Shown here piece by piece: positions 33,939 through 46,333 of a DNA stretch of 64,000 nucleotides (its first letter is position 1; each line of letters begins with the position of its first letter). The stretch is from Achromobacter sp. AONIH1 (lineage in GTDB: Bacteria; Pseudomonadota; Gammaproteobacteria; Burkholderiales; Burkholderiaceae_B), in NCBI RefSeq assembly GCF_002902905.1, contig NZ_CP026124.1, positions 744,001-808,000 of the forward strand. Reading direction: 5' to 3'. Made by a program: the position numbers and the translations under genes. The notes under the pieces were generated by a model. The model was not told the origin of the DNA, did no database searches, and saw only the letters and a list, made by a program, of their open reading frames with translations.

Positions 33939-36540
33939 TTTCAACACTGCCTGTACGGCAGAGAACCCACGCCGCGCTGGCAAGCGCCCCTGTGGCCCTT
34001 CTAAGCTGCCTGTACGGCAGCGAACGATGCGAATAGCCATGCCGGCATGTTGCCGATTTTCTAAGCTGCCTGGAACCTTCACGCGCGCGCGAAGAACCCC
34101 GGCAGGATTTTCTAAGCTGCCTGTGCGGCAGCGAACGGAAATCTACGGCGGCCGCGAATACGGCGACTTTTCTAAGCTGCTTGTGCGGCAGCGAACCCGG
34201 CATCGTGTAGATTGCACATCATCGTGTATTTCTAAGCTGCCTGTACGGCAGCGAACAGTTGCAGGCGGCCAAGACTCCTCAGCAAGCTTTTCTAAGCTGC
34301 CTGTGCGGCAGCGAACCGTGAGCGATTGAAGCCCGAAGGGGCGAGACTTTTCTAAGCTGCCTGTGCGGCAGCGAACAAGAAGCCAACGCAGGCCCAACAG
34401 CGACGCTTTTTCTAAGCTGCCTGTGCGGCAGCGAACGAGCAGCCGGCCGCCTGTGCGATCTCCTTCATTTTCTAAGCTGCCTGTGCGGCAGCGAACCCTA
34501 CGGCTGGCTGTACATGGAGAGCCGAGAATTTCTAAGCTGCCTGTGCGGCAGCGAACGGCGTTCTGGTTCAGCGTGCGCGTGGGCTCTTTTTCTAAGCTGC
34601 CTGTGCGGCAGCGAACACCGTCATGGTGTCGATGATGTGGGTTGCGATTTTCTAAGCTGCCTGTGCGGCAGCGAACCGCATCCCGAATCCTGAAAGAAGC
34701 GGCAGCACTTTCTAAGCTGCCTGTGCGGCAGCGAACTTGCGGCCGGTCGTGATCGGCGCTCGCGGCTTTTTCTAAGCTGCCTGTGCGGCAGCGAACCGCG
34801 TTCTGGTTCAGCGTGCGCGTGGGCTCCTTTTCTAAGCTGCCTGTGCGGCAGCGAACCTTGCCCTTGAGGCGCACGCCGAAGTAGGCCATTTCTAAGCTGC
34901 CTGTGCGGCAGCGAACATCGCTGGCCTGTGGGACCGCTGGCGCGATGATTTCTAAGCTGCCTGTGCGGCAGCGAACGCCAGCATGTCCCAGAAGCGCTTT
35001 TGCTCGGCTTTCTAAGCTGCCTGTGCGGCAGCGAACACAAAGTTGCATTACTACCGAACTCAAGCTGATTTCTAAGCTGCCTGTGCGGCAGCGAACACTC
35101 GCCAGCAATACGGCAACATGCTGTCGCTTTTCTAAGCTGCCTGTGCGGCAGCGAACCCCATGACCAGCATCGCACGGGAGCTGCTGGATTTCTAAGCTGC
35201 CTGTGCGGCAGCGAACATGCCGCTCGTCTTGAGACGCTGCTCGATAACTTTCTAAGCTGCCTGTGCGGCAGCGAACGATTGCAGCCTCTCAGCAGCAGGA
35301 GGGGTGATTTTCTAAGCTGCCTGTGCGGCAGCGAACTTGCGACATAGGCCAACCCGAAAATAGGCGTTTTTCTAAGCTGCCTGTGCGGCAGCGAACCTCC
35401 CCGGCTACAGAGCTGGCCTGGGGCGCGGCTTTCTAAGCTGCCTGTGCGGCAGCGAACTGATCGACGCATCACGCTTGCCGGATTGGTTCTTTCTAAGCTG
35501 CCTGTGCGGCAGCGAACGTCCGGGCCCAGCCTGACGAGCTGGCCGTTTTTTTCTAAGCTGCCTGTGCGGCAGCGAACTCGAGAAGGCTTGGCGCGGCCGC
35601 GCTGTCGATTTTCTAAGCTGCCTGTGCGGCAGCGAACGCGTTCATCACGACGCAGAGCGATGGTGTTCCTTTCTAAGCTGCCTGTGCGGCAGCGAACCTC
35701 TCGGTATTCCACGTCATTTCCTTTCTGCTTTTCTAAGCTGCCTGTGCGGCAGCGAACACCGAAGACGCGCAACTCAGTGCAGACGGATTTTTCTAAGCTG
35801 CCTGTGCGGCAGCGAACGCCGACGCGGTCGTCGGTGGCCCACGCCATGCTTTCTAAGCTGCCTGTGCGGCAGCGAACGCTGCGTGCGACTCCGGTCCCCG
35901 TGTCGCTTCTTTCTAAGCTGCCTGTGCGGCAGCGAACATTGCACAGGCGAGCTGCTGGGCTCCCACGGTTTTCTAAGCTGCCTGTGCGGCAGCGAACGCA
36001 TTGAAGGAATGCCGTTTTCGTTCGTCAACTTTTCTAAGCTGCCTGTGCGGCAGCGAACCAGGATGACCTTTTTGCCGTACTGCACGTACATTTCTAAGCT
36101 GCCTGTGCGGCAGCGAACGTATCCGGATGCGCCACCGCCCGATCCGTACATTTTCTAAGCTGCCTGTGCGGCAGCGAACTGGCGTTCTGCGCGCTTGGCG
36201 TGCGCTGGTATTTTCTAAGCTGCCTGTGCGGCAGCGAACGGTGGATCCGGCCTTCGCTGCCGGCCGGATGCATTTCTAAGCTGCCTGTGCGGCAGCGAAC
36301 GTGCCCAAGCATGGAGCGCGGCATGACTCAACTTTCTAAGCTGCCTGTGCGGCAGCGAACGAGTTGCCGCGCCTGCTTGAGCTTGCATGCAATTTCTAAG
36401 CTGCCTGTGCGGCAGCGAACGATGATCCAGCGGTGGAGAAGCGCCAGGAAAATTTCTAAGCTGCCTGTGCGGCAGCGAACCTGGATGGCCGCTTCGTGCT
36501 GGCCTACCTGGATTTCTAAGCTGCCTGTGCGGCAGCGAAC
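33939..36540 (-). CRISPR. type I-F CRISPR array, 44 repeats, 43 spacers
   Basis: A 28-bp repeat recurs every 60 bp. In crRNA sense (minus strand) it begins GTTCG, forms the hairpin CTGCC-GCACA-GGCAG and ends CTTAGAAA, the classic I-F repeat cleaved by Cas6f. Spacers are 32 bp, with four of 33 bp near the leader side and one of 31 bp at the far end. The leader is at the right (36541 on). The left end is degenerate: the repeat at 33939-33966 has five changes, and the one at 34058-34076 has lost 9 nt including one arm of the hairpin. Single-base variants lie at 33998, 34169 and 34229. Spacers 34557-34588 and 34797-34828 are almost identical. Open frames across the array are repeat translations, not genes. 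Confidence 0.99.
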
Positions 36541-36670: not shown

Positions 36671-37237
36671 TCAAAACCACGGCACCGTACCGCCCTGGCT
36701 CAAGCCATAGGAATTGAACCCTTTACCAGCCCCGCCCTCCTCCCCGCGCTCCTGAGCAATGAACAGGCAGAACGGCTGCCTGGTGCTGGCGCTGTTCAGA
36801 CGGACGAAGGGCAATTCGACCTGACGCTCGACGCTATCGGGAATGGCTGCGGCTGCCTGGTCCGCCGTTTCTCCCTTGCGACGCATGCGGCGACGGCGCA
36901 GGCGTTCCGCGCTGGTCTTGAACTGACGGCGCTGCACCACGTAGCGCGGCGCGTCGGATGGCGCAGGTGCCAAGTCAGTCAGCCGAACGTGATCCCGCAT
37001 GCCCTGCAGCCATGCCAAGGCCATCAGGTCCTGAAGCGCATCGGGATCGCCGTGCAACCTCAGCACCGAGCCCATGGTGCGCGGCCGCAATCGGTATTGG
37101 GGAAAGCTGACCCCGATGCTTGCCGATTGCAGCTGCACCAAGGCCCGATGCAGCTTGGCCACCAACGCCCCCAGCAGATGCGCGTGGCTGAACTCCGGAT
37201 CGGGCAGCAAGGTGATGTCTATATAGTGGGTCGTCAT
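36671..37237 (-). CDS. cas6f: CRISPR endoribonuclease Cas6f (Csy4)
   Basis: The 188-residue enzyme cuts pre-crRNA at the base of the repeat hairpin and stays bound to it. The N-terminal HYIDITLLPDPEF and the catalytic His30 in KLHRAL match Csy4, and an arginine-rich helix (RLRRRRMRRKG, about residues 112-122) would sit in the RNA major groove. It is the last gene of csy1-csy2-csy3-cas6f, 5 bp after csy3, and directly borders the leader. Confidence 0.96.
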   Translation of the reverse strand: MTTHYIDITLLPDPEFSHAHLLGALVAKLHRALVQLQSASIGVSFPQYRLRPRTMGSVLRLHGDPDALQDLMALAWLQGMRDHVRLTDLAPAPSDAPRYVVQRRQFKTSAERLRRRRMRRKGETADQAAAAIPDSVERQVELPFVRLNSASTRQPFCLFIAQERGEEGGAGKGFNSYGLSQGGTVPWF

Positions 37238-37242
37238 GGCGG

Positions 37243-38268
37243 TCAGCTCGCGTCGCCGAACACGCCGCCGCGGATCAAGACCGCCATCACGAAATGCTGT
37301 TGCTCGGTCGGCGGCGCCTTGTCCTTGAGCAGCCAGTCGTCCAGCAGGGTATAGAAGTCCTGCTTCTGCTTGGGCTGGCGATAGGCCTTACCTTGCGTGG
37401 TGACCGAACCGTAGGGTTCCACAGCGATTGGCCCCAGATCGTGCGCGCCTTCGTACCAGGTATCGATAGTGCGCAAGGCATTGCCGATCTTCTGGGAATG
37501 GATGGCGGCGATCTCCTGACCTTTCTCGCCGATCTGGTAGAGCGTCTTGCTCTTGTCGCCGCGTCCGCGATCCAGGATCAGTTCCTGGGACGGAAACACC
37601 TCCTGCCCCGCACCCACCCGCAAGAACGCCGTGACCTGCAGCAGCACATGACCGCCTGCCAAACCCTCAGCGATCACAGAACCCAATGACTTCACCTCAT
37701 CACTCAACGCATCAAGCGCGCGCAGATTCTGCGCCAGGGCATCGAAGCGCCATTGCTGGTCAGCCTTGCCGTCCTTGAGCCGCGCCACATCCACGCGCAC
37801 ATGTTCCGCACCGACCCGGTTGCGCCACAGGAAGCGGCCATTGGCCAGGTTGGCCGCATAGCGGTTGGCCAATTCGGCATAGCCGTGCTCCGCGACGTAG
37901 GACTGCACGGTCTGCAAGAGTTTCGCCTGATATTCCGCGCTGTTGCATGCGGACGGCGTGCCCGTGCCGGGCAGCACGCGCAGCGTGAATTGCACCTTGA
38001 GCGTGTCGGCATCCGCAGGCAGGGTCGCCACGTCCACGGTTTGCAGGTTGGGGTTCTCTATCGCGGCGTCGAGCTTGGCGGGATCCTGGTCCTTGGCCTT
38101 GAGGCGGTTGGAGATGGTGCCGCGCACGGATTTCTCGCGCAGCCGAACGGGCGGCCACGATGCGGATTTCGCCAGATCCTCCCAGTTGCCAGCATGGAAG
38201 ACGGCATCGGAGGGATCCAGCTTGCGTTCAAAGGCCAGTACGGAGGCGGTCTTGAGTGCGTTCGACAT
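37243..38268 (-). CDS. csy3: type I-F backbone protein Cas7f (Csy3)
   Basis: The 341-residue protein is the Cas7 backbone subunit. In known I-F complexes six copies coat the crRNA spacer and every sixth base is flipped out. The N-terminal ASVLAFERKLDPSDAVF and TISNRLKAKDQDPAKL segments are family features, and length is normal. It is co-directional with csy2 upstream (55-bp gap) and cas6f downstream. Confidence 0.96.
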   Translation of the reverse strand: MSNALKTASVLAFERKLDPSDAVFHAGNWEDLAKSASWPPVRLREKSVRGTISNRLKAKDQDPAKLDAAIENPNLQTVDVATLPADADTLKVQFTLRVLPGTGTPSACNSAEYQAKLLQTVQSYVAEHGYAELANRYAANLANGRFLWRNRVGAEHVRVDVARLKDGKADQQWRFDALAQNLRALDALSDEVKSLGSVIAEGLAGGHVLLQVTAFLRVGAGQEVFPSQELILDRGRGDKSKTLYQIGEKGQEIAAIHSQKIGNALRTIDTWYEGAHDLGPIAVEPYGSVTTQGKAYRQPKQKQDFYTLLDDWLLKDKAPPTEQQHFVMAVLIRGGVFGDAS

Positions 38269-38323
38269 GATGATTCAATCCTTGTAAATGGCGTATTCAA
38301 ATCAACGGGACGAGCGGCGACGC

Positions 38324-39403
38324 TCAGGAATAGGGATAGATCTCGTCGTCATCTTCCTGCCCGGTCTCATCCGTGACGGGAAGCTGCGACGGATCCGGCG
38401 CATAGTCGTTGCGGCAGCGATACAGGCCCAGGGCTTCGTCGGTCTCGGCGCGCCAGAGCAACTGGTCCAGGTGCGTGAGCCGGTGCGGGCTGATCCATTC
38501 GCCCATGGAATAGACCGATTCGACGAAGCGCAACGGTGTCGCGGCATCTCGGGCGTTCAGGACAGAACCTGCTTCGTGCAACGGCGATAGCGCGGCATAG
38601 CCGACCGGTATCGGCACGATCCAGCCGCTGCCGGCGCCGCGCCAGGGATCCGCCCAGCGCTGTTTGCCATCGGTTGGCGCGGGTTCGCCGTCCTGGAGTG
38701 GTACCGGCTCATGGTTGAAGCGCGAGGCATGGAGCCAGGCGTCCAGCAGGGACGTCTGCGGATCGCGCTCGCGGAGACGATGCAACCGGTCAGCCAGCAG
38801 ATCATCACGTCCAACCAGCGCGAAGCCGGGCAACCACTGCCGACGCCATTGGCGGAACTGCCTATCGCGCTCCTGTGGGTCGTCTGCCAGGACTGCCAGC
38901 CAAGGACGCACGCGCCGGCCAGGTGCGGGACGGGAAGGCAACAGGCTGCCGCCGGCGACACGCATTTGCGCCAGCACGTCGCCTGCCGTATTCGCCCATT
39001 TCTGTGTGTCGGTTTCGTTGCCCCGCAGCAGCTTCGGCACCGTATCGGTGGTGCGTATTTCCGAAACGCTAAAGACCAGCGAAATGTCCAGATGAATGCG
39101 GCCTTCTTCGACGATGGCTGCCGTGCTTCCGTCCTTGTCCACGGGATTGCGGGTCAAGTTGAAGCTACGCACGTAGCCTTGCGTCGTCTGCTCCTGGTGA
39201 TGGTGGCAGATCACGCCAACGCCGTGCAGCCGCAGCGGGACTTTGGCCTTGGCCAGATTGCGTTCCAGCGCCCACATCAGGCCGGTGAAGGCGGTGATGG
39301 AGGGAAAGCCGTGCGTCAGCGGGCTGGAGATGGCGTTGGCGTTTTGGATGCGTAGGTGGGGAAATACCAGAAGTGCTTCAGAGGAGAAGAGAGCATTCAC
39401 CAT
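38324..39403 (-). CDS. csy2: type I-F Cas5f (Csy2)
   Basis: The 359-residue Cas5-like protein caps the 8-nt 5' handle of the crRNA together with Csy1. Recognisable segments are LLVFPHLRIQNANAISSPLTHGFPSI (start) and the GFALVGRDDLL region. Its ATG at 39403 overlaps the last codons of csy1 by 7 nt, indicating translational coupling. Confidence 0.95.
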   Translation of the reverse strand: MVNALFSSEALLVFPHLRIQNANAISSPLTHGFPSITAFTGLMWALERNLAKAKVPLRLHGVGVICHHHQEQTTQGYVRSFNLTRNPVDKDGSTAAIVEEGRIHLDISLVFSVSEIRTTDTVPKLLRGNETDTQKWANTAGDVLAQMRVAGGSLLPSRPAPGRRVRPWLAVLADDPQERDRQFRQWRRQWLPGFALVGRDDLLADRLHRLRERDPQTSLLDAWLHASRFNHEPVPLQDGEPAPTDGKQRWADPWRGAGSGWIVPIPVGYAALSPLHEAGSVLNARDAATPLRFVESVYSMGEWISPHRLTHLDQLLWRAETDEALGLYRCRNDYAPDPSQLPVTDETGQEDDDEIYPYS

Positions 39404-40800
39404 GCATCCCCCCGCCCTGCCGTAGGCGAATCACCGTCTTGACGCGAAATGCGATCAGACGCATCCAGCTGCCTGCGCAGTTCACGAAGCTGCTGAACGA
39501 ATCCATCTTCGTCGGCAAGCAGTTCTTTTTTCCACTGCCGCGCCTCTACGTCTCCAACTGGCAATTGCGCAGACAAATAGCGATTTAGCCAGTTCGCAAA
39601 ACGGCGGCCAATCTCATTGGGCCAAGTCATAAGCAGCCATTCTCGAGCGAACTTCGACTCTTCAGGCAACTCCCCCCGCAATGGGTCCAGCCACAACTGT
39701 TCTTCTCGGGCCAGCTTCTGGAATCGTTCGGCATCGCGCGTCCAACCCGCAGGAAATGTCTGCAAGAACTCACCCGCCATCGTCACAATTTCATCCACCA
39801 CAACATCGATGTAGGCATCTCGACGTTGGCGCGTCTGCAAGTTGGGCGCAGGCTCTGTAGCAAGAAACGCGCGCAGGTCGCGAATTGCCCTGCGGACTTC
39901 CGGACGAACGATATAGAGCTTTTCAAATACCGATTCGACGTGAGCGGGTTGCCAGAGCTTCGTGCGGCTCCACATCGGTGGCAACGAGGCGAGCAGATAG
40001 TTCACTCCGCCGCGCTCGCTATTCAGCTGCGAAATGTTCTGAGGCTTGGTGCCACCGAGCTTCTGTGCGGCCAGCCCCGGATAGTCCCGAAACACGCCAT
40101 CATGGGGCTTTCGCTCTCGCCGCGCCTGACGCGCGGCCTTGTTGACCTCACCAAAACGATCCTCCTGAATTTGAGCGTACAACTCATGGACAAGAGATGT
40201 GGCGTGCAGGGGCGCCAGCAGCACATAGTCGTCATCTGTGCACGGATCGTCGGCAGCAAGCCAATACACCTGCTTGGCTCGCGTATGCGAACTGGGAGCG
40301 CCGGCACGTGGCTGTGTGAGCCCTACGAATGCATCACTCAAGCTTTGAGCTTGAGCCGGGTTGTCGTGCAAGGCTAGGCGTGCGGCCTCATCGTTCGTCA
40401 GCAATGCGGTCAGCAAGCTAATACCATCGACTTCAAGCTTCAGCAGCTTGTACACATCGAGCGCCGCGGCATTGCCGACCACATCACCCACGAAGGACTG
40501 CCCCAACACATGGCTGCCCAGTTCCTTCAACGGAGGCAGGCCGCGAGGGTCCACATAAAGATTGGTACCTCGAGCGTCAGGGTGTACTGGCTTGAGGGAA
40601 TGGGTCACTGCCTGGATTTGTTCGACACGTTTGGCTGCGCTGAGCAACCATGTGTCACGCGCATACGCCGCAATGATCTCTTCGCGTTGAGAGTCATCGG
40701 GGCCTAGCTTTTCGAGCTTGGACTGCAATCGCTCCAGCAAGAATTGGTCGATTGCGGCACGAAAGCGTTCCTTGCGCCTTGTTACATGAACATCGGACAT
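39397..40800 (-). CDS. csy1: type I-F large subunit Cas8f (Csy1)
   Basis: The 467-residue protein recognises the PAM and recruits Cas2-3. Family segments include HPDARGTNLYVD and KLGGTKPQNISQLNSERGG. It is the first gene of the csy operon and starts at 40800 with AAAGG upstream. The 1-kb region before it, which separates it from cas2-3, contains a crRNA-like guide, its target and a mini-ORF, and probably controls this operon. Confidence 0.95.
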   Translation of the reverse strand: MSDVHVTRRKERFRAAIDQFLLERLQSKLEKLGPDDSQREEIIAAYARDTWLLSAAKRVEQIQAVTHSLKPVHPDARGTNLYVDPRGLPPLKELGSHVLGQSFVGDVVGNAAALDVYKLLKLEVDGISLLTALLTNDEAARLALHDNPAQAQSLSDAFVGLTQPRAGAPSSHTRAKQVYWLAADDPCTDDDYVLLAPLHATSLVHELYAQIQEDRFGEVNKAARQARRERKPHDGVFRDYPGLAAQKLGGTKPQNISQLNSERGGVNYLLASLPPMWSRTKLWQPAHVESVFEKLYIVRPEVRRAIRDLRAFLATEPAPNLQTRQRRDAYIDVVVDEIVTMAGEFLQTFPAGWTRDAERFQKLAREEQLWLDPLRGELPEESKFAREWLLMTWPNEIGRRFANWLNRYLSAQLPVGDVEARQWKKELLADEDGFVQQLRELRRQLDASDRISRQDGDSPTAGRGDAW

Positions 40801-40833
40801 GGGGAATACCTTTCACGCAAAAAAGGAGATAAT

Positions 40834-40861
40834 TTCCCAGTCAGCAATAGCCGACTGGGAA
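40834..40861 (-). terminator. 9-bp hairpin just before csy1, possible attenuator
   Basis: Perfect arms TTCCCAGTC / GACTGGGAA with a 10-nt loop lie in the csy1 leader. On the minus strand a T6 run follows 9-10 nt after the stem (40819-40824), too far for a canonical terminator. It may attenuate transcription between the mini-ORF and csy1. Confidence 0.4.
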
Positions 40862-40868
40862 TGATGGA

Positions 40869-40919
40869 TTACGGCGTTTCAGCCGTCACAGCTCTTCTGA
40901 GCGCGTGATTGCTTGTCAC
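40869..40919 (-). CDS. 16-codon mini-ORF with tandem AGA codons, CreT-like candidate
   Basis: On the minus strand the strong Shine-Dalgarno AAGGAGG (40930-40924) is followed after 4 nt by GTG and a 16-codon frame, MTSNHALRRAVTAETP, ending in TAA. Codons 8 and 9 are AGA AGA (40898-40893); AGA is visibly rare in the neighbouring high-GC genes. CreT toxins of CRISPR-associated CreTA modules are tiny transcripts, and the founding haloarchaeal one works by tandem rare arginine codons behind a strong Shine-Dalgarno. The frame sits 45-50 bp before the csy1 hairpin and downstream of a promoter targeted by the crRNA-like guide. Expression and toxicity are untested; it could instead be a regulatory leader peptide. 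Confidence 0.5.
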   Translation of the reverse strand: MTSNHALRRAVTAETP

Positions 40920-40965
40920 GATTCCTCCTTCTCTTTGGTTGGTGCCTCGACAGCACGTTGTTGAC

Positions 40966-41000
40966 ATGTCGTGACGCAGGTCTGAACTGCGTCACGACAT
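40966..41000. repeat. perfect 14-bp inverted repeat in the csy1 upstream region
   Basis: Arms ATGTCGTGACGCAG / CTGCGTCACGACAT are fully complementary around a 7-nt loop. It lies between the guide-targeted promoter and the mini-ORF, so the transcript would carry a very stable stem in its 5' leader. It could equally be an operator, for example for the neighbouring ribbon-helix-helix protein. Confidence 0.7.
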
Positions 41001-41012
41001 CTTAAAATTTAA

Positions 41013-41041
41013 CCAGTCAGCGTAGCTGCGCAGCGGCAAAA
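41013..41041 (+). promoter_or_regulatory. target site of the crRNA-like guide, with CC PAM
   Basis: CC at 41013-41014 is the type I-F PAM, and the following 27 nt match the pseudo-spacer at 41116-41142 in 20 positions. Mismatches are at 6, 12, 16, 18, 24, 26 and 27. All four positions that Cas7f flips out (6, 12, 18, 24) are mismatched, while seed positions 1-5, 7 and 8 pair. The site overlaps the -10/start region of the minus-strand promoter at 41044-41072. Confidence 0.8.
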
Positions 41042-41043
41042 AA

Positions 41044-41072
41044 TTAATATGAATAATTCATCGTAGCTTGAA
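41044..41072 (-). promoter_or_regulatory. candidate minus-strand promoter for the mini-ORF and csy operon
   Basis: TTCAAG (41072-41067), a 17-bp spacer and TATTAA (41049-41044) would start transcription near 41037, inside the guide target. The -35 is weak. A palindrome ATGAATAATTCAT (41049-41061) overlaps it. On the plus strand an extended -10 TGG-TATCGT (41077-41085) with a weak -35 TTCATC could drive the guide RNA from the same region. Confidence 0.5.
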
Positions 41073-41088
41073 AGGGTGGTATCGTGCA

Positions 41089-41170
41089 AGCCTCTGTCGC
41101 AAGACAGCTCAGAAAAGTCACCGTAGTTGCACGGCGGCTATTCTTCTCTGCTGAACAAGCAGCTTGAATT
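41089..41170 (+). ncRNA. crRNA-like guide: degenerate repeat, 27-nt pseudo-spacer, degenerate repeat
   Basis: The first pseudo-repeat has the hairpin CTGTC-GCAA-GACAG (41094-41107) and handle CTCAGAAA, one change from the array handle CTTAGAAA; its stem carries a compensatory pair change. The second (41143-41170) aligns without gaps to the array repeat at 19 of 28 positions, with hairpin CTGCT-GAACA-AGCAG. Cas6f processing would give an 8-nt handle, a 27-nt guide and a 3' hairpin. It is transcribed opposite to the cas genes. The guide matches the promoter region 75 bp away with a correct PAM. This matches CreA antitoxin RNAs (CreTA) or CreR autorepression RNAs of type I loci. The partial complementarity would favour binding without Cas3 cleavage. 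Confidence 0.8.
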
Positions 41171-41354
41171 TGTTGGAAACGTCGTCCATCACGCAAATTG
41201 CTGGTATTTCGCCCAAGCGCGTCCCGTCCGTACGTTAGACAAGATACTCATCAAAGATCTATTTGCCCGGCGCCCCTCGCTTGCCTACCAACGGCAGATA
41301 TCTCGAGTGCCTACGGTCAATACGTATTCACGATGTGAGTACGCAACCGTACCG

Positions 41355-41383
41355 TTGACCTTGCTTTCTGACGGGCGTTACAC
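41355..41383 (+). promoter_or_regulatory. sigma-70 promoter for the ribbon-helix-helix gene
   Basis: TTGACC-N17-TTACAC gives a transcription start near 41390 and a leader of about 110 nt before the ATG at 41501. A palindrome AATACGTATT at 41319-41328 lies upstream and could be an operator. Confidence 0.45.
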
Positions 41384-41500
41384 AAGCGCGAGCACCACAT
41401 CAAAGCTCCCGAAACGTTCCACACGCGGTGACTTGTGCACCTTCGACAACGCGCCACATCTTCTCCGCGCGCCACGCGAGAACCTTGAGGGAGTCCCGCT

Positions 41501-41785
41501 ATGTTGAGTGACCGCCTGAAATCCCGCCTGACCAAAGACCGACCAATGACCCCGATCACGCTGCGCATTCCGGTGGACGTGGTCGAATCGATGAAGACCA
41601 TCGCGCCGCAACGCGGTTTTTCCGGATACCAGGCCCTGCTCAAGTCATACCTCAGCGAAGGCTTGCGCCGTGACGAGCAGCAGTTCGCTTCCGCCTCGCA
41701 CGCCCGGCTGGTTGAAGCACTCAAGCGCCATGGCGTTTCCCCTACGCTGATCGAGCAGGCCGAACGCGAAGCGGCCGACGCCTGA
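41501..41785 (+). CDS. ribbon-helix-helix (CopG/BrnA-like) regulator inside the cas locus
   Basis: The 94-residue protein has a short basic start and then TPITLRIPVDVVESMKTIAPQ, a beta strand and helix pattern of ribbon-helix-helix DNA-binding proteins. GFSGYQALLKSYLSEGL follows, resembling CopG-type antitoxins, and then a charged C-terminal helix. GGGAG lies 7 nt before the ATG. No toxin partner gene is adjacent. It is the only protein gene on the plus strand within the cas block, convergent with cas2-3. It may be an antitoxin remnant, an autoregulator, or a regulator of csy1 and the guide RNA. Confidence 0.7.
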   Translation: MLSDRLKSRLTKDRPMTPITLRIPVDVVESMKTIAPQRGFSGYQALLKSYLSEGLRRDEQQFASASHARLVEALKRHGVSPTLIEQAEREAADA

Positions 41786-41814
41786 CGCGAGCGGTGTCTA
41801 CGCACCGCCTCGCG
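41786..41814. terminator. hairpin between the RHH gene and cas2-3
   Basis: Arms CGCGAGCGGTG and CACCGC-C-TCGCG (one bulge) lie immediately after the RHH stop, 27 bp from the cas2-3 stop. No T-tract; probably a shared stop of convergent transcripts. Confidence 0.45.
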
Positions 41815-41840
41815 CGGGCCCGCCCGCACTGTCGCCTTCA

Positions 41841-44800
41841 TCATTTCGCCTTGAATCCCAGACACTCGTGATACCACCAGCCCTGCCCTGCGTTGTCGGG
41901 CAGGCTGGCGATGGCGTATCGCTGCGCGCAGTCCGGTAGCGACTGCCCCAATTCCTGCGCCAGCGTCATCAAATCCTCCAGCAAGCTGCCTCGCAGCCAC
42001 GGTGTGACGCAGCCAACCGCGATGCTCTCCAACGGCACCGAATGCCGCTGGAACGCATCGACCGGCACGTGCAGGGGTTTCCTGCGATCCCGCTCATCGA
42101 CCACGCGATGCAGCAACAACCGCTCTTCCTCATCGTCAGGCAGCAGCGCGACATCCACGCGCGGCGCCGGATCATGGCGAAAGCGCTGGAACTGCGGCAA
42201 CAGACCCGTCAGCCAGAGGTTCTCGCTGCTGGCCCAATGCAGGCTGGCCGAACGCTGCACGGACGGCGCGTTTGGATTGTCCGTGGCGGGAGGCAGCATC
42301 GCTTCGTGCATGCGCGCATGTTCCAGATCGACCAGATTGCGAGTGGGGCGCAGCCCTTCCTTGACGACGGAGATGCGCGCGCGCGCATCAACCGGCCAGA
42401 TGACCGCGCCGGCGGTTTCCCGAGCCAGCAACGATTGCAGTTGATGCGACTTCAAATGGAAGTAACGCTCCATGCCCGTCTTGCCGCCGGTCTCATCCAT
42501 TTCAAAACCTGGCTTGCAAAAGGCGGCCTTGCCCGACGGCCTTTCGTAGGCTCGCAGATTGCTGTCCAGCACCCGCATGTTCACCCCGCCCGCCTTGCCC
42601 GGCCGATGCCGTCGCACCCGCCCGGCCAGCTGAATAAGCGATCGCATCGACGAGGGTTCGACCACGGCCCAGTCGTAGTCATGGTCACGCCCCACTTCCG
42701 TGACCGGCGAACCCAGGACGATGAACAGATGATGAGATTCCGGGCTGGCATCCATCAGGGCGCGTATCGACGGCTGTCGGAAGACCGGATCGATCCCATC
42801 CGTGGCGCGGCGGTCAAGCACGGTGTCTAGCTGCCGCTCGATGCTGGAGCGCGCCAACAAGGGAAACTGCGAGTGATAGACGCACATATGCACGCGCACG
42901 CCGGGCGCGGGCGCGCCTTGGGCATACATGGCCAGCGCCACATCGAACAACGGATCGATATTCGCCATGCGGACCAGGCCGAAGCTCACGCGCTTGCCGC
43001 TGGCGGGATCGACGCCATGGTTGTGGGGCTGCTGATGCAGTTCCCAGGCCTGCGCCAACACATAGCGGGCGAAGTCGCGGCGGCGATCGGCTTCGTTCAT
43101 TCCGCTCCATTCGGTTGGCAGCGCCACAATGGCGGCCAGCCGGCGCGGCTCGGCCTGGGCGAGCTGGGCCACGCGCTTTTCCACGAAGCGTTCATGGCAG
43201 GCGCGAAAACCCTGCGCGTCGGCGCAATCCTGCTCCTGCTGCTGAAACTCGTCCATCCACAGGCAGCAGATGGCGGCGGACTCGCCGGGCCGCTCGCCAC
43301 GATGACGCTGATACACCTCGCGTCCGGCGCGATAGGCCAGGAACAGTCCCTCGACCAGCGCCGGCGGCAAGGTGGCCGAGGACAGCAACACGCGCGCGCC
43401 CAGCAATCCCGCCCAATGCACCAGCCGCGTCAACGCGGGCAGGTCGGCCATGTCGAAATCGTCCGGTTCGTCCAGCACCAGGTCGCTGGTCATGAGCCGC
43501 AGCATGGGCGCGATCTGGCGGCCGCCGCGCAGGCTCTCGGTGGCGGGCGTCAGGTGGTCCACGGTGCAGGCCAGCACGGGCGCGGCAATCAGCGAGCGAA
43601 CCTGGGCATCGTCGGTCAGACGTTGCAGCAGCGGATGCCGGTCGTCGCCTTCGAACAGAACTTGCCCGCCTTCGTCGAGCAGCGCCTGGCGCGAGGCCGA
43701 GCCCGTCGCCTCGGCCCGGGCTTCCCAGTATTCGAACAAGGCGCTGCTGGCGGCGCCGCCGACCTTGATGGCCAGCTGCTCATCGCCCAGGCCCAGATCC
43801 CTCTGAAACACGCGCCCTGTCTGCAAGGTCAGTGTGCGCAAGCCAATGGCGAATGCGCAGCGCATGCCCACGCCAGGGTCGGCCAAGGCATTCATGATGC
43901 GGGCATTGCCCAGCGTCTTGCCGCAGCCGGTCGACGCCATGTTGACGATGAACGCACCCTGGCGCTGCGCGCGCTCACGCACGCCGGCGGCCAGGTCGGC
44001 CGCCTTGTCCTGCCATTGGAATCGTGGATTGGAATTGCGCTTTTTCAGGCCACGGTGATTTTGCAAGGCGGGCAGGCTGCGCGTCAGCGTGGGCAGCGAA
44101 CGCGCCACCAATGTGGCATGGGCCTGCACGCCGAGCAGGTGTTCGTCCAGCGTCTGGTTGAACAGGACCTTCCCAGCTGGCGCATCATGGTTTCTGCTCG
44201 TATTGGCGTACAGCGGATAACTCGCATTGCGGTAGGGCTTGCGCTGCGCTTCGTCCTCGATGCTCGAGTAGTAATGATCGGCCAGCATCAGGCACATGCG
44301 CGAGACGTGTATCGCGAATGGGTCTGTCATTGCCGCGTCCCAGTCCGACGGCCGCGGCAGCTCCAGCAGTTTGCGTGCATAGCGTGCGGCCTGCTTGCGC
44401 CATGCGAGCGTGCCAACAGGCAGCCCCAGCGGGAAATGCCAGTGGGCGTGCACGCTGGAAATAGGTGCATCCTCGCGAGGTTCATTCCAATCGGCGCTGA
44501 TGCGCTGCAACAGCCCGTGCAGCTCGGCAGCGTTCACGAACCGGGGATGGGCGCCAAAGCGCCGCCAGCGATACTGCGGTTGATCGATATCCTCGCCGAT
44601 GCTGCCGCTGTCCTGCGATACCGGCTTGCATGGCAGACGATGGTGCGTCAGCACCAGCCAGGCCACGGCCTGAGCCAACGGCGGCAACGAGGCGAAAGGC
44701 AGGCATTCTCCAGCCTGCGGCTCGTCAATACCGTCGCGCAACAGGCGGCCTCCTTCGGTATCCAGCCATTGCCTCTCGAAAGCCTGTGCTTGCGCGTCCG

Positions 44801-45335
44801 CATCGGCGCTAGCGGCCAGCCGACGCAGCCAACCCGCATCGTCGTCATCGCCCACAAAGGCCTGGAACAGGCGCACCGACACCCATTCATGACGATAGTG
44901 ATTGCGCTCCCGCAAGCCAGGCTGCTTGAGGCGATCCTGGAACGCCTGCGTCGCTTTCCCCAAATCGTGCATCAGGGCGGCTAGCGCGGTCAGCGCCGTC
45001 ATCAGCGGCAAATGATGCCAGTGGCTTTCGTCTTCGACACGCAGCACATCGCTGGCTGTGGTGTTGGTGGGGACGGCGCCCACGGCGTTGAACTGACGCG
45101 CATCGCCGACGATCCACAGCAGTTCGCTATGGTCGCGGCCGCGTATCCAATGGCAGGCCACGGCAGTGTTCTTGCGCGCGCGCTGGCGCAGCAGCCGGCG
45201 CACGGCGTCCAGGCCGGCCTGGGTAATGGGCGTCTGCCAGGTACGGTCTCCGCGCCGCTCGGCATACTGATCCAGGATGCGGCGCGTCTCGGTCAGCGCG
45301 CGCTTGGAGCATTGGGACACGAAAAGCACGTTCAT
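41841..45335 (-). CDS. cas3: Cas2-Cas3 fusion nuclease-helicase
   Basis: The 1164-residue fusion has a Cas2-like N-terminal domain (residues 1-95), an HD nuclease domain (LMHDLGKA, His123-Asp124) and a superfamily 2 helicase. The helicase has Walker A STGCGKT at 468-474, the DExD-type box DEPD at 622-625 and SSATLPP near 655. It degrades DNA marked by the Csy complex and serves with Cas1 in spacer acquisition. Cas2-Cas3 fusion is the hallmark of type I-F. Its start overlaps the cas1 stop by 4 nt. Confidence 0.97.
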   Translation of the reverse strand: MNVLFVSQCSKRALTETRRILDQYAERRGDRTWQTPITQAGLDAVRRLLRQRARKNTAVACHWIRGRDHSELLWIVGDARQFNAVGAVPTNTTASDVLRVEDESHWHHLPLMTALTALAALMHDLGKATQAFQDRLKQPGLRERNHYRHEWVSVRLFQAFVGDDDDAGWLRRLAASADADAQAQAFERQWLDTEGGRLLRDGIDEPQAGECLPFASLPPLAQAVAWLVLTHHRLPCKPVSQDSGSIGEDIDQPQYRWRRFGAHPRFVNAAELHGLLQRISADWNEPREDAPISSVHAHWHFPLGLPVGTLAWRKQAARYARKLLELPRPSDWDAAMTDPFAIHVSRMCLMLADHYYSSIEDEAQRKPYRNASYPLYANTSRNHDAPAGKVLFNQTLDEHLLGVQAHATLVARSLPTLTRSLPALQNHRGLKKRNSNPRFQWQDKAADLAAGVRERAQRQGAFIVNMASTGCGKTLGNARIMNALADPGVGMRCAFAIGLRTLTLQTGRVFQRDLGLGDEQLAIKVGGAASSALFEYWEARAEATGSASRQALLDEGGQVLFEGDDRHPLLQRLTDDAQVRSLIAAPVLACTVDHLTPATESLRGGRQIAPMLRLMTSDLVLDEPDDFDMADLPALTRLVHWAGLLGARVLLSSATLPPALVEGLFLAYRAGREVYQRHRGERPGESAAICCLWMDEFQQQEQDCADAQGFRACHERFVEKRVAQLAQAEPRRLAAIVALPTEWSGMNEADRRRDFARYVLAQAWELHQQPHNHGVDPASGKRVSFGLVRMANIDPLFDVALAMYAQGAPAPGVRVHMCVYHSQFPLLARSSIERQLDTVLDRRATDGIDPVFRQPSIRALMDASPESHHLFIVLGSPVTEVGRDHDYDWAVVEPSSMRSLIQLAGRVRRHRPGKAGGVNMRVLDSNLRAYERPSGKAAFCKPGFEMDETGGKTGMERYFHLKSHQLQSLLARETAGAVIWPVDARARISVVKEGLRPTRNLVDLEHARMHEAMLPPATDNPNAPSVQRSASLHWASSENLWLTGLLPQFQRFRHDPAPRVDVALLPDDEEERLLLHRVVDERDRRKPLHVPVDAFQRHSVPLESIAVGCVTPWLRGSLLEDLMTLAQELGQSLPDCAQRYAIASLPDNAGQGWWYHECLGFKAK

Positions 45336-46333
45336 GGCCGGGATTCCACATTATCCGCCGGGGCCGCCAGGCGCGATGTTTCCAACGCGATGCGCTTGAG
45401 CGTGTCGATGACGAAGTCCAGGGCCTCGTTGCGCGTCAGCGCTTCGATGCATTGCCGACGGAACTGTTGTTCGTCGTCGCCGCGCATGGCCGACAGAAAG
45501 GCTTGCGGCAATATCACGGCGTCCTTGATCAGGTCCGCGGCATCAAACACCAGACCACCACGACGCGTCTTGCCGTGCAGGACGGCCAGGCCATGCGGCA
45601 GACCCAGCACCCAGGTGGCGGTTGCGCCCAGACCATATGCCAGGTAGTTGCCATGGTCTAGATAACGGTTGGCGATATCCGTGCCGCTACCACGCTTGGC
45701 CCTGGTGAAGTCGCCGTAGCCCACCGTATCGACGGCAAGCTTGAACAGTGATTTAGTCAGCTGCGCTTCGCCGACCAGCAACGCGGTGACGTCCGGCGCA
45801 TTGTCGATCTGCGTACCGGCTTGCCGCAGCAGCGCCGTCAGACGTTCGCCGTCCACCTCGAAACCGGACTCGCGCGTGGCGCGCGTGGTCCATGCGGCGT
45901 GCAGGCACTGCAGCCGCGCAGCCTGTAATTGCTTGGCGGCATGCAAGCGCAGCCCGTCGTCGAACCAGAACCGGACCCAGGCCTGCAAGTATTCCGTCGG
46001 CCGATATTCGCTTTGCGGTGCGAACCAGGCCACCTCGACATCCAGCTCGTTGACGCTGAACAGCGGCGTGCCTCCGCCGCCGCAAAAACCGACCAGCACG
46101 CCTGCCTTGGCCAACTCGCGCATCGCCGCCTGCGTGACGGACGTGCCCGTCCCGAGCAGGATGCTGGTGGTATTGGCAATGGGAATGTTCCAGTACAGCT
46201 GTTTCTTGCCCGTATCCGTCACATACTCGACGCGGCCGCCATTGATCAACACCCGGCAATGTTCCAGGTAATAGATGTTGGCGCGCTTGGAATGCAGAAT
46301 GCTCTTGAGATCGGCGGCGCGTATCGCTTCCAT
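45332..46333 (-). CDS. cas1: Cas1 integrase, type I-F
   Basis: The 333-residue spacer-integration enzyme has its metal-binding residues in place: Glu189 (LVGEAQLTK), His253 (GLAVLHGK), Asp264 and Asp267 (LVFDAADLIKD). It is the first gene of the minus-strand cas1-cas2/3 unit. The upstream 210 bp to the metK terminator must hold the promoter, but I see no strong -35/-10 pair there. Confidence 0.96.
   Translation of the reverse strand: MEAIRAADLKSILHSKRANIYYLEHCRVLINGGRVEYVTDTGKKQLYWNIPIANTTSILLGTGTSVTQAAMRELAKAGVLVGFCGGGGTPLFSVNELDVEVAWFAPQSEYRPTEYLQAWVRFWFDDGLRLHAAKQLQAARLQCLHAAWTTRATRESGFEVDGERLTALLRQAGTQIDNAPDVTALLVGEAQLTKSLFKLAVDTVGYGDFTRAKRGSGTDIANRYLDHGNYLAYGLGATATWVLGLPHGLAVLHGKTRRGGLVFDAADLIKDAVILPQAFLSAMRGDDEQQFRRQCIEALTRNEALDFVIDTLKRIALETSRLAAPADNVESRP

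Follow-up and report, generated by a model that had tools for sequence, protein, structure and literature searches.

The gap between cas2-3 and csy1 in the type I-F CRISPR-Cas locus of Achromobacter sp. AONIH1 is likely to hold a type I-F CreTA module, in which, judging from sequence, a guide RNA probably keeps a neighbouring, tiny RNA toxin in check, so that a cell losing its CRISPR machinery would be poisoned. The kind of module and its arrangement are already known from Acinetobacter, for which the accessible text of PMC10097628 describes type I-F CreTA modules in WCHA45, LoGeW2-3 and ANC3789, the WCHA45 module being located in the cas3-csy1 gap and proven by experiment. New, as far as the literature search shows, are the spread of such modules over about half of the sampled I-F loci, a strict six-base rule in the pairing of guide and target, and an AGA/TTA codon cassette, with the reservation that the 19 further modules in the supplement of that paper may include Burkholderiales ones.

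The window, meaning the whole 64,000-nt stretch that was analysed, carries a complete type I-F locus on its minus strand, consisting of cas1 and cas2-3 (41841..46333), csy1 (cas8f; 39397..40800; TIGR02564) as the first gene of the csy operon, csy2, csy3 and cas6f (36671..39403), and a CRISPR array of 42 repeats (33998..36540) that match the Rfam family CRISPR-DR4. The cas2-3/csy1 gap is 1040 bp long, and its plus strand bears two degenerate repeats and a 27-nt pseudo-spacer, the same cas3-csy1 intergenic position as in CreTA modules of the WCHA45 kind. Within the array itself (34469-34856), the spacer after the repeat at 34529 and the one after the repeat at 34769 differ very little (98% identity over an 88-nt unit), which looks like a spacer duplication or a double acquisition.

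The first degenerate repeat, psiR1 (41089..41115, plus strand), has the stem CTGTC/GACAG, in which CTGCC/GGCAG has been altered on both sides so that pairing is kept; its loop is shorter by one base than in the array repeats, and the repeat ends in the 5' handle CTCAGAAA (41108-41115). It is followed by psiS (41116..41142, plus strand), the pseudo-spacer or guide of the creA-like gene, and by the second repeat, psiR2 (41143..41170, plus strand), with the stem CTGCT/AGCAG. Both repeats, aligned with those of relatives, retain the Cas6f hairpin, as in the WCHA45 kind; Rfam matches above threshold were confined to the array repeats and included neither psiR1 nor psiR2. A 5-bp Cas6f-type stem with a handle agreeing at 7/8 positions or better occurs 42 times in the window, psiR1 being the sole such element outside the array; psiR2 has kept the stem, but its handle, CTTGAATT, falls below the 7/8 test. 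From what is known of Cas6f, a cut is expected within psiR2 after 41162, and the mature CreA RNA predicted from the repeat anatomy (41108..41162, plus strand, 5' CUCAGAAA) would comprise the 8-nt handle, the 27-nt guide and a 3' hairpin (fold z -2.0).

The site matched by the guide (41015..41041, plus strand) is flanked by the I-F PAM CC (41013..41014, plus strand), sits 74 nt before the pseudo-spacer and agrees with it at 20 of 27 positions, with mismatches at 6, 12, 16, 18, 24, 26 and 27; the PAM position at the guide's own locus is AA. With both strands of the window counted, there are 11,394 CC sites, among which this target has the top score (20, the next best being 15), and 3000 Markov versions of the gap (40801-41500) reached a maximum of 18. 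When CC plus the first 15 target positions were searched with positions 6 and 12 left free, the target was the only exact match in the 6.65-Mb genome. The first-pass annotation of this DNA had placed the repeats, handle, pseudo-spacer, PAM and target at these same positions and had reported the same count of matches, the compensatory stem change and the retained Cas6f hairpins, all of which held on recounting.

For comparison with relatives, 84 csy1 loci were gathered, including the window and 18 loci from genome contigs. Whole-genome searches found csy1 in 10/200, 12/268, 33/369 and 20/399 genomes (the sets overlap, and loci were kept for most), and five of 17 plasmid records with csy1 were added. 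Fourteen loci were skipped for an upstream region that was too short or for non-ACGT letters, leaving 70, among them the window and two genomes that are represented twice (L017/L069 and L077/L084). A guide locus was defined by a Cas6f-like hairpin with handle, followed by a guide for which at least 13 of the 17 counted positions match at a CC site. Such a pair is present in 36 of the 70 loci, as compared with 9 of 700 Markov controls. Self-guarding guides thus appear to be widespread among type I-F loci and to have been overlooked there, and pseudo-spacer and target do covary across related loci, a check that the annotation had suggested. Four Markov controls reached 17/17, likely as low-complexity sequence. 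Set against the gaps of other loci, guides passed in 25 of 1260 comparisons, some of these involving close relatives. The guide runs opposite to csy1 in 34/36 loci, the exceptions being L032 and L033, where it runs with csy1, and the target lies on the guide's strand in 35/36.

The mismatches follow a regular pattern. Among the 33 guides left after removal of near-identical ones, positions 6, 12, 18 and 24 are paired in 8, 9, 8 and 6, respectively, as against 24-33 for the other positions from 1 to 17. Omission of positions 6, 12 and 18 yields 36 loci and omission in any other phase 21-24; with at most two mismatches, the corresponding numbers are 24 and 2-6. The six-base period is that of the bases flipped out in the Csy complex. 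That the pattern might be an artefact of choosing on 17 positions was refuted by a selection on all 20 positions, in which 9, 10 and 11 of 35 guides were paired at 6, 12 and 18, respectively, and 22-35 at each of the remaining positions up to 19. Together with the mismatches at every sixth base, the covariation indicates that each guide evolves in step with its target and that Csy reads the pair. The same features provide a search rule, namely an opposite-strand mini-CRISPR, a CC target and a mismatch at each sixth base.

These observations bear on the notion that the element is a relic, either a decayed array fragment or an old self-targeting spacer, with no present function. Both repeats are indeed degenerate, and no other searched genome of the genus has csy1, so that the locus may have been acquired recently. 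A compensatory stem change, however, together with an intact handle, PAM and seed, mismatches confined to unread positions and the far end, and covariation seen independently in 32 further distinct guides, makes a relic highly improbable. The earlier claim of a CreTA/CreR-like guide with correct PAM, aimed at a promoter, stands strongly supported in its guide part, by the covariation and by the Acinetobacter precedent in the same gap, and falls short in its promoter part, discussed below. Three traits had been taken as possible signs of a distinct variant and no longer speak for one: orientation against csy1 is the rule, as published; the pseudo-spacer of WCHA45 is even shorter (20 nt against 27 nt in the window); and the nearby RHH gene, which looks like an orphan BrnA-like antitoxin gene, is absent from most module-bearing relatives.

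As in WCHA45, the target is followed by a mini-ORF that diverges from creA. This creT-like mini-ORF has 16 sense codons from GTG (VTSNHALRRAVTAETP; 40869..40919, minus strand) and is preceded by the Shine-Dalgarno sequence AAGGAGG (40924..40930, minus strand). The frame is open upstream as far as an ATG at 40967, over which the GTG start is preferred because of the Shine-Dalgarno sequence and the relatives. The start codon stands in a predicted hairpin of 5 bp with a 7-nt loop (40904..40920, minus strand); 4/4 pairs of the short stem characteristic of the WCHA45 kind are present, and the predicted fold agrees, although weakly (-3.7 kcal/mol, z only -0.3). Codons 8-9 are the tandem rare arginine codons AGA AGA (40893..40898, minus strand).

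The surrounding RNA structure was examined in an alignment of nine Burkholderiales sequences, guide-and-creT loci picked as close relatives. The named structure pairs in 88% of their cells, and 14/37 pairs show two-sided changes; 0/500 shuffles scored as high. The predicted creT transcript contains a 14-bp hairpin (40966..41000, minus strand; z -6.4) with two-sided changes at 11/14 pairs and, upstream of the Shine-Dalgarno sequence, a small conserved stem GTGC/GCAC (40942..40956, minus strand) that is paired in 97% of cells and is almost invariant, hence without covariation. Between creT and csy1 stands a conserved 12-bp hairpin (40835..40862, minus strand; 97% of cells paired, z -6.4), which is terminator-like with a weak T run and was not called by the terminator caller. 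Helix 4, which follows the ORF, pairs in only 69% of cells and is weak, and the fourth pair of the start-codon hairpin is broken in four of the nine relatives.

Since all testable sequence features of the WCHA45 kind were found, the module is filed as a member. It shares with the Acinetobacter modules the cas3-csy1 gap, two degenerate hairpin repeats, the CC PAM, the Shine-Dalgarno sequence and the start codon inside a hairpin, and differs from them in its GTG start, its longer ORF, the extra 14-bp hairpin upstream of the Shine-Dalgarno sequence, a GC-rich host that uses AGA very rarely, and a csy1 identity of about a third (33% with LoGeW2-3). LoGeW2-3 was recovered by the same guide scan (as L064), and its 33-bp creT reads ATG TTT AGC ACA CAT TTA GTT AGA AGG GTC TAG, that of the window GTG ACA AGC AAT CAC GCG CTC AGA AGA GCT, followed by seven more codons. 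Both have AGC as codon 3, tandem AGR codons at 8-9 and a start codon stemmed with codon 5. Start codon and codon 5 are exchanged together in the 15 tandem-codon mini-ORFs with 3/4 or more stem pairs, ATG going with CAT in 3/3 and GTG with CAC or CGC in 12/12; the remaining two (L068 and L071) have only 2/4 stem pairs. Mutation of the start-codon stem showed it to be required for toxicity of the Acinetobacter CreT, according to the available part of PMC10097628.

With anatomy, guide-target covariation, conserved creT features and codon rarity directly observed, transcription, processing, repression and toxicity of the CreTA module can be predicted as follows. The plus-strand mini-CRISPR (creA) would be transcribed, Cas6f would cut at both degenerate repeats, and the Csy complex would take up the RNA. 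This guide, which is short and matched in part, would then bring Csy to 41015-41041 without recruitment of Cas2-3, and target-bound Csy would block transcription towards creT. In another I-F1 system, as reported in the accessible portion of PMC7296934, Csy with spacers of 14-176 nt binds and only wild-type-length R-loops trigger Cas2/3; by analogy, binding without cutting would be expected of the 27-nt guide, mismatched as it is at 24, 26 and 27. The creT product would be a small RNA whose ribosome-binding site is strong, whose start codon is in a hairpin and whose codons 8-9 are AGA-AGA. Loss or inhibition of Csy would free creT, ribosomes would be over-engaged and the scarce AGA-decoding tRNA-Arg would be sequestered, ending in arrest or death of the cell. 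This is of relevance to anyone deleting csy genes or applying anti-CRISPRs in such strains. Against the CreTA reading stand the empty promoter scan of the gap, the weak fold of the start-codon hairpin with its fourth pair broken in some relatives, the guide loci that have no tandem-codon mini-ORF, the interrupted mini-ORF of L066 and the codon conclusion published for WCHA45, all described here or below.

In the window, no minus-strand ORF of at least 60 aa that could encode a protein toxin occurs between target and csy1. In CrePA, as far as the accessible text of PMC12737573 goes, CreA likewise guides repression of a toxin gene, but CreP is a KilA-N protein, and such a gene is absent from the window gap. 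In L061, a gene for a 58-aa protein without Pfam match (1228-1404, in csy1 orientation) lies between target and csy1, and a reading frame that resembles it by eye has the same location in L050; these small genes are possible protein cargo under guide control. L066, on the Acinetobacter plasmid pANC7970.1, retains guide and target (16/17) with a creT reading frame that is broken up, and is a natural toxin-less derivative.

The guide might also serve to set Csy levels. In a CreR-type autorepressor, target-bound Csy would block transcription into csy1 and thus set its own level, and the mini-ORF would be no toxin. The gap is the sole leader of csy1, the target is 215 nt upstream of that gene, and the mini-ORF stops just 69 nt before it. 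In ten guide loci without tandem-codon creT (L006, L021, L023, L025, L032, L033, L060, L065, L067 and L080), moreover, the target is 26-108 nt from csy1, and these are candidate I-F CreR autorepressors; eleven further guide loci without tandem-codon mini-ORF have their target farther away than that. CreR is a crRNA-like RNA from a mini-CRISPR that represses a cas-locus promoter, a plan that the element described here would share, but in the part of PMC12737573 consulted it is generally toxin-less, whereas in the window the stretch from target to csy1 includes a creT-like mini-ORF. The window retains a Shine-Dalgarno sequence, a start-codon hairpin and tandem rare codons, all needless for an autorepressor, a conserved hairpin stands between creT and csy1, and the creT-csy1 distance is 401 nt in L041. 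The window thus belongs with the creT-bearing loci, and CreR-type control is unlikely. Because a CreT-like mini-ORF follows the target, the sequence leans to addiction rather than to Csy-level control; since the T run of the hairpin before csy1 is weak, read-through into csy1 may occur and give the module a double role.

The annotation had also proposed that the target overlaps a minus-strand promoter, as would befit a CreR target in a cas-operon promoter. This could not be confirmed, a sigma-70 consensus scan of 40780-41520 having called zero promoters. By eye, the seed spans TTGACT in the relatives L014, L017 and L020, with TAAAAT or CATAAT 16 nt further on; the window equivalent is CTGACT, with no clear -10 visible downstream.

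The Shine-Dalgarno sequence, a short ORF containing the tandem rare codons, a pair of hairpins and then csy1 follow one another as in a leader and could represent a ribosome-mediated attenuator, in which stalling of the leader peptide at the rare codons would choose between hairpins, Csy would rise when rare tRNAs are short, and the guide would be a second control. An ORF-to-csy1 distance of 69-106 nt in 16/17 loci and hairpin 5, paired in 97% of cells, agree with such a device. Against it, the last hairpin has a weak T run and was uncalled as a terminator, the 401 nt that separate the mini-ORF from csy1 in L041 do not fit, and the mini-ORF is homologous to a proven toxin, which leaves attenuation very unlikely.

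Tandem rare codons were scored in 38 loci, the 36 guide loci together with L008 and L065, which match at 12/17 and were included by hand. A Shine-Dalgarno sequence and a mini-ORF with AGR-AGR or TTA-TTA were found in 17/38, compared with 44/7600 controls, six of these with a start-codon stem; without the two hand-added loci the figure is 16/36. The codons are AGR-AGR in 12 and TTA-TTA in five (L017 and L069 being one genome), and the pair begins at codon 8 in 14/17. Among the 21/38 guide loci left without tandem-codon mini-ORF by this strict test is L042, which has TTA-TTA at codons 8-9 and lacks an early stop; L035 has TCA-ATA at codons 8-9, and in L043 codon 6 is a stop. In 400 kb sampled from the genome (168 mechanically called ORFs, 87,335 codons), TTA (0.69 per 1000) and then AGA (1.94) are the rarest sense codons. 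ARAGORN called 57 of 58 tRNA hits, with one Arg-UCU gene, one Arg-CCU gene and no Leu-UAA gene among the 57. On the csy1 tree, which is largely unresolved, the TTA label (five rows, assigned by the analyst) needs four changes, at least two of them forced by well-supported branches. That two very rare codons replace each other at a constant position is taken, from sequence comparison, as evidence of selection for scarcity, as in archaeal CreT.

In the archaeal modules, as described in the accessible text of PMC8501985, tRNA-Arg UCU is sequestered in Haloarcula hispanica and tRNA-Ile CAU in Halobacterium hubeiense. These also have a short ORF, a strong Shine-Dalgarno sequence and two consecutive minor codons, which in the window are present early in the mini-ORF; they differ in being type I-B, in lacking the start-codon hairpin family and, in H. 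hispanica, in having one repeat in creA. For WCHA45, the available text of PMC10097628 reports that toxicity was abolished only by synonymous changes at codons 2, 3 and 5; its authors reject a codon effect and propose rRNA targets. A change of a single codon, however, would still spare the other rare codon, and AGA may be a common codon in the WCHA45 host. Contrary to the published Acinetobacter conclusion, there is about an even chance that creT acts by sequestering a rare tRNA. The wider proposal, which is slightly less probable than that, is that non-Acinetobacter I-F CreT RNAs are rare-tRNA sinks in which one and the same type of start-codon-hairpin mini-ORF has an exchangeable AGA-AGA/AGG or TTA-TTA cassette that tracks the scarcest codon, and that the gap shifts between CreTA and CreR in evolution.

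We found no report of tandem rare codons in bacterial CreT in a search that mostly did not extend to subscription papers; the text of PMC10097628 consulted contains neither AGA nor arginine nor tandem, and PMC9458426 was also word-searched. If such codons matter, bacterial and archaeal CreT toxins would come under one mechanism, and how the Acinetobacter toxin kills would become directly testable; the leucine (TTA) version would be a tRNA target so far undescribed for CreT.

The cas3-csy1 gap also looks like a hot spot for addiction genes. In the window, the RHH ORF (41501-41785, plus strand) shares 85% identity with the BrnA-like antitoxin of L021, which adjoins a BrnT toxin gene (Pfam BrnT_toxin, E 1.7e-23); the Pfam scan of the RHH protein gave CopG_antitoxin with a score below the family cut-off. 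A tblastn search of window positions 41100-41860 for brnT returned noise only (best E 0.36), and the RHH gene therefore looks like an orphan antitoxin gene. Type II toxin-antitoxin genes occur in the gaps of other loci, with an HTH antitoxin in L014, HigB in L019, BrnT/BrnA in L021 and, by annotation, VapC with XRE in L068, and the gaps of L005, L006, L012, L020 and L027 contain HTH proteins that are similar as judged by eye.
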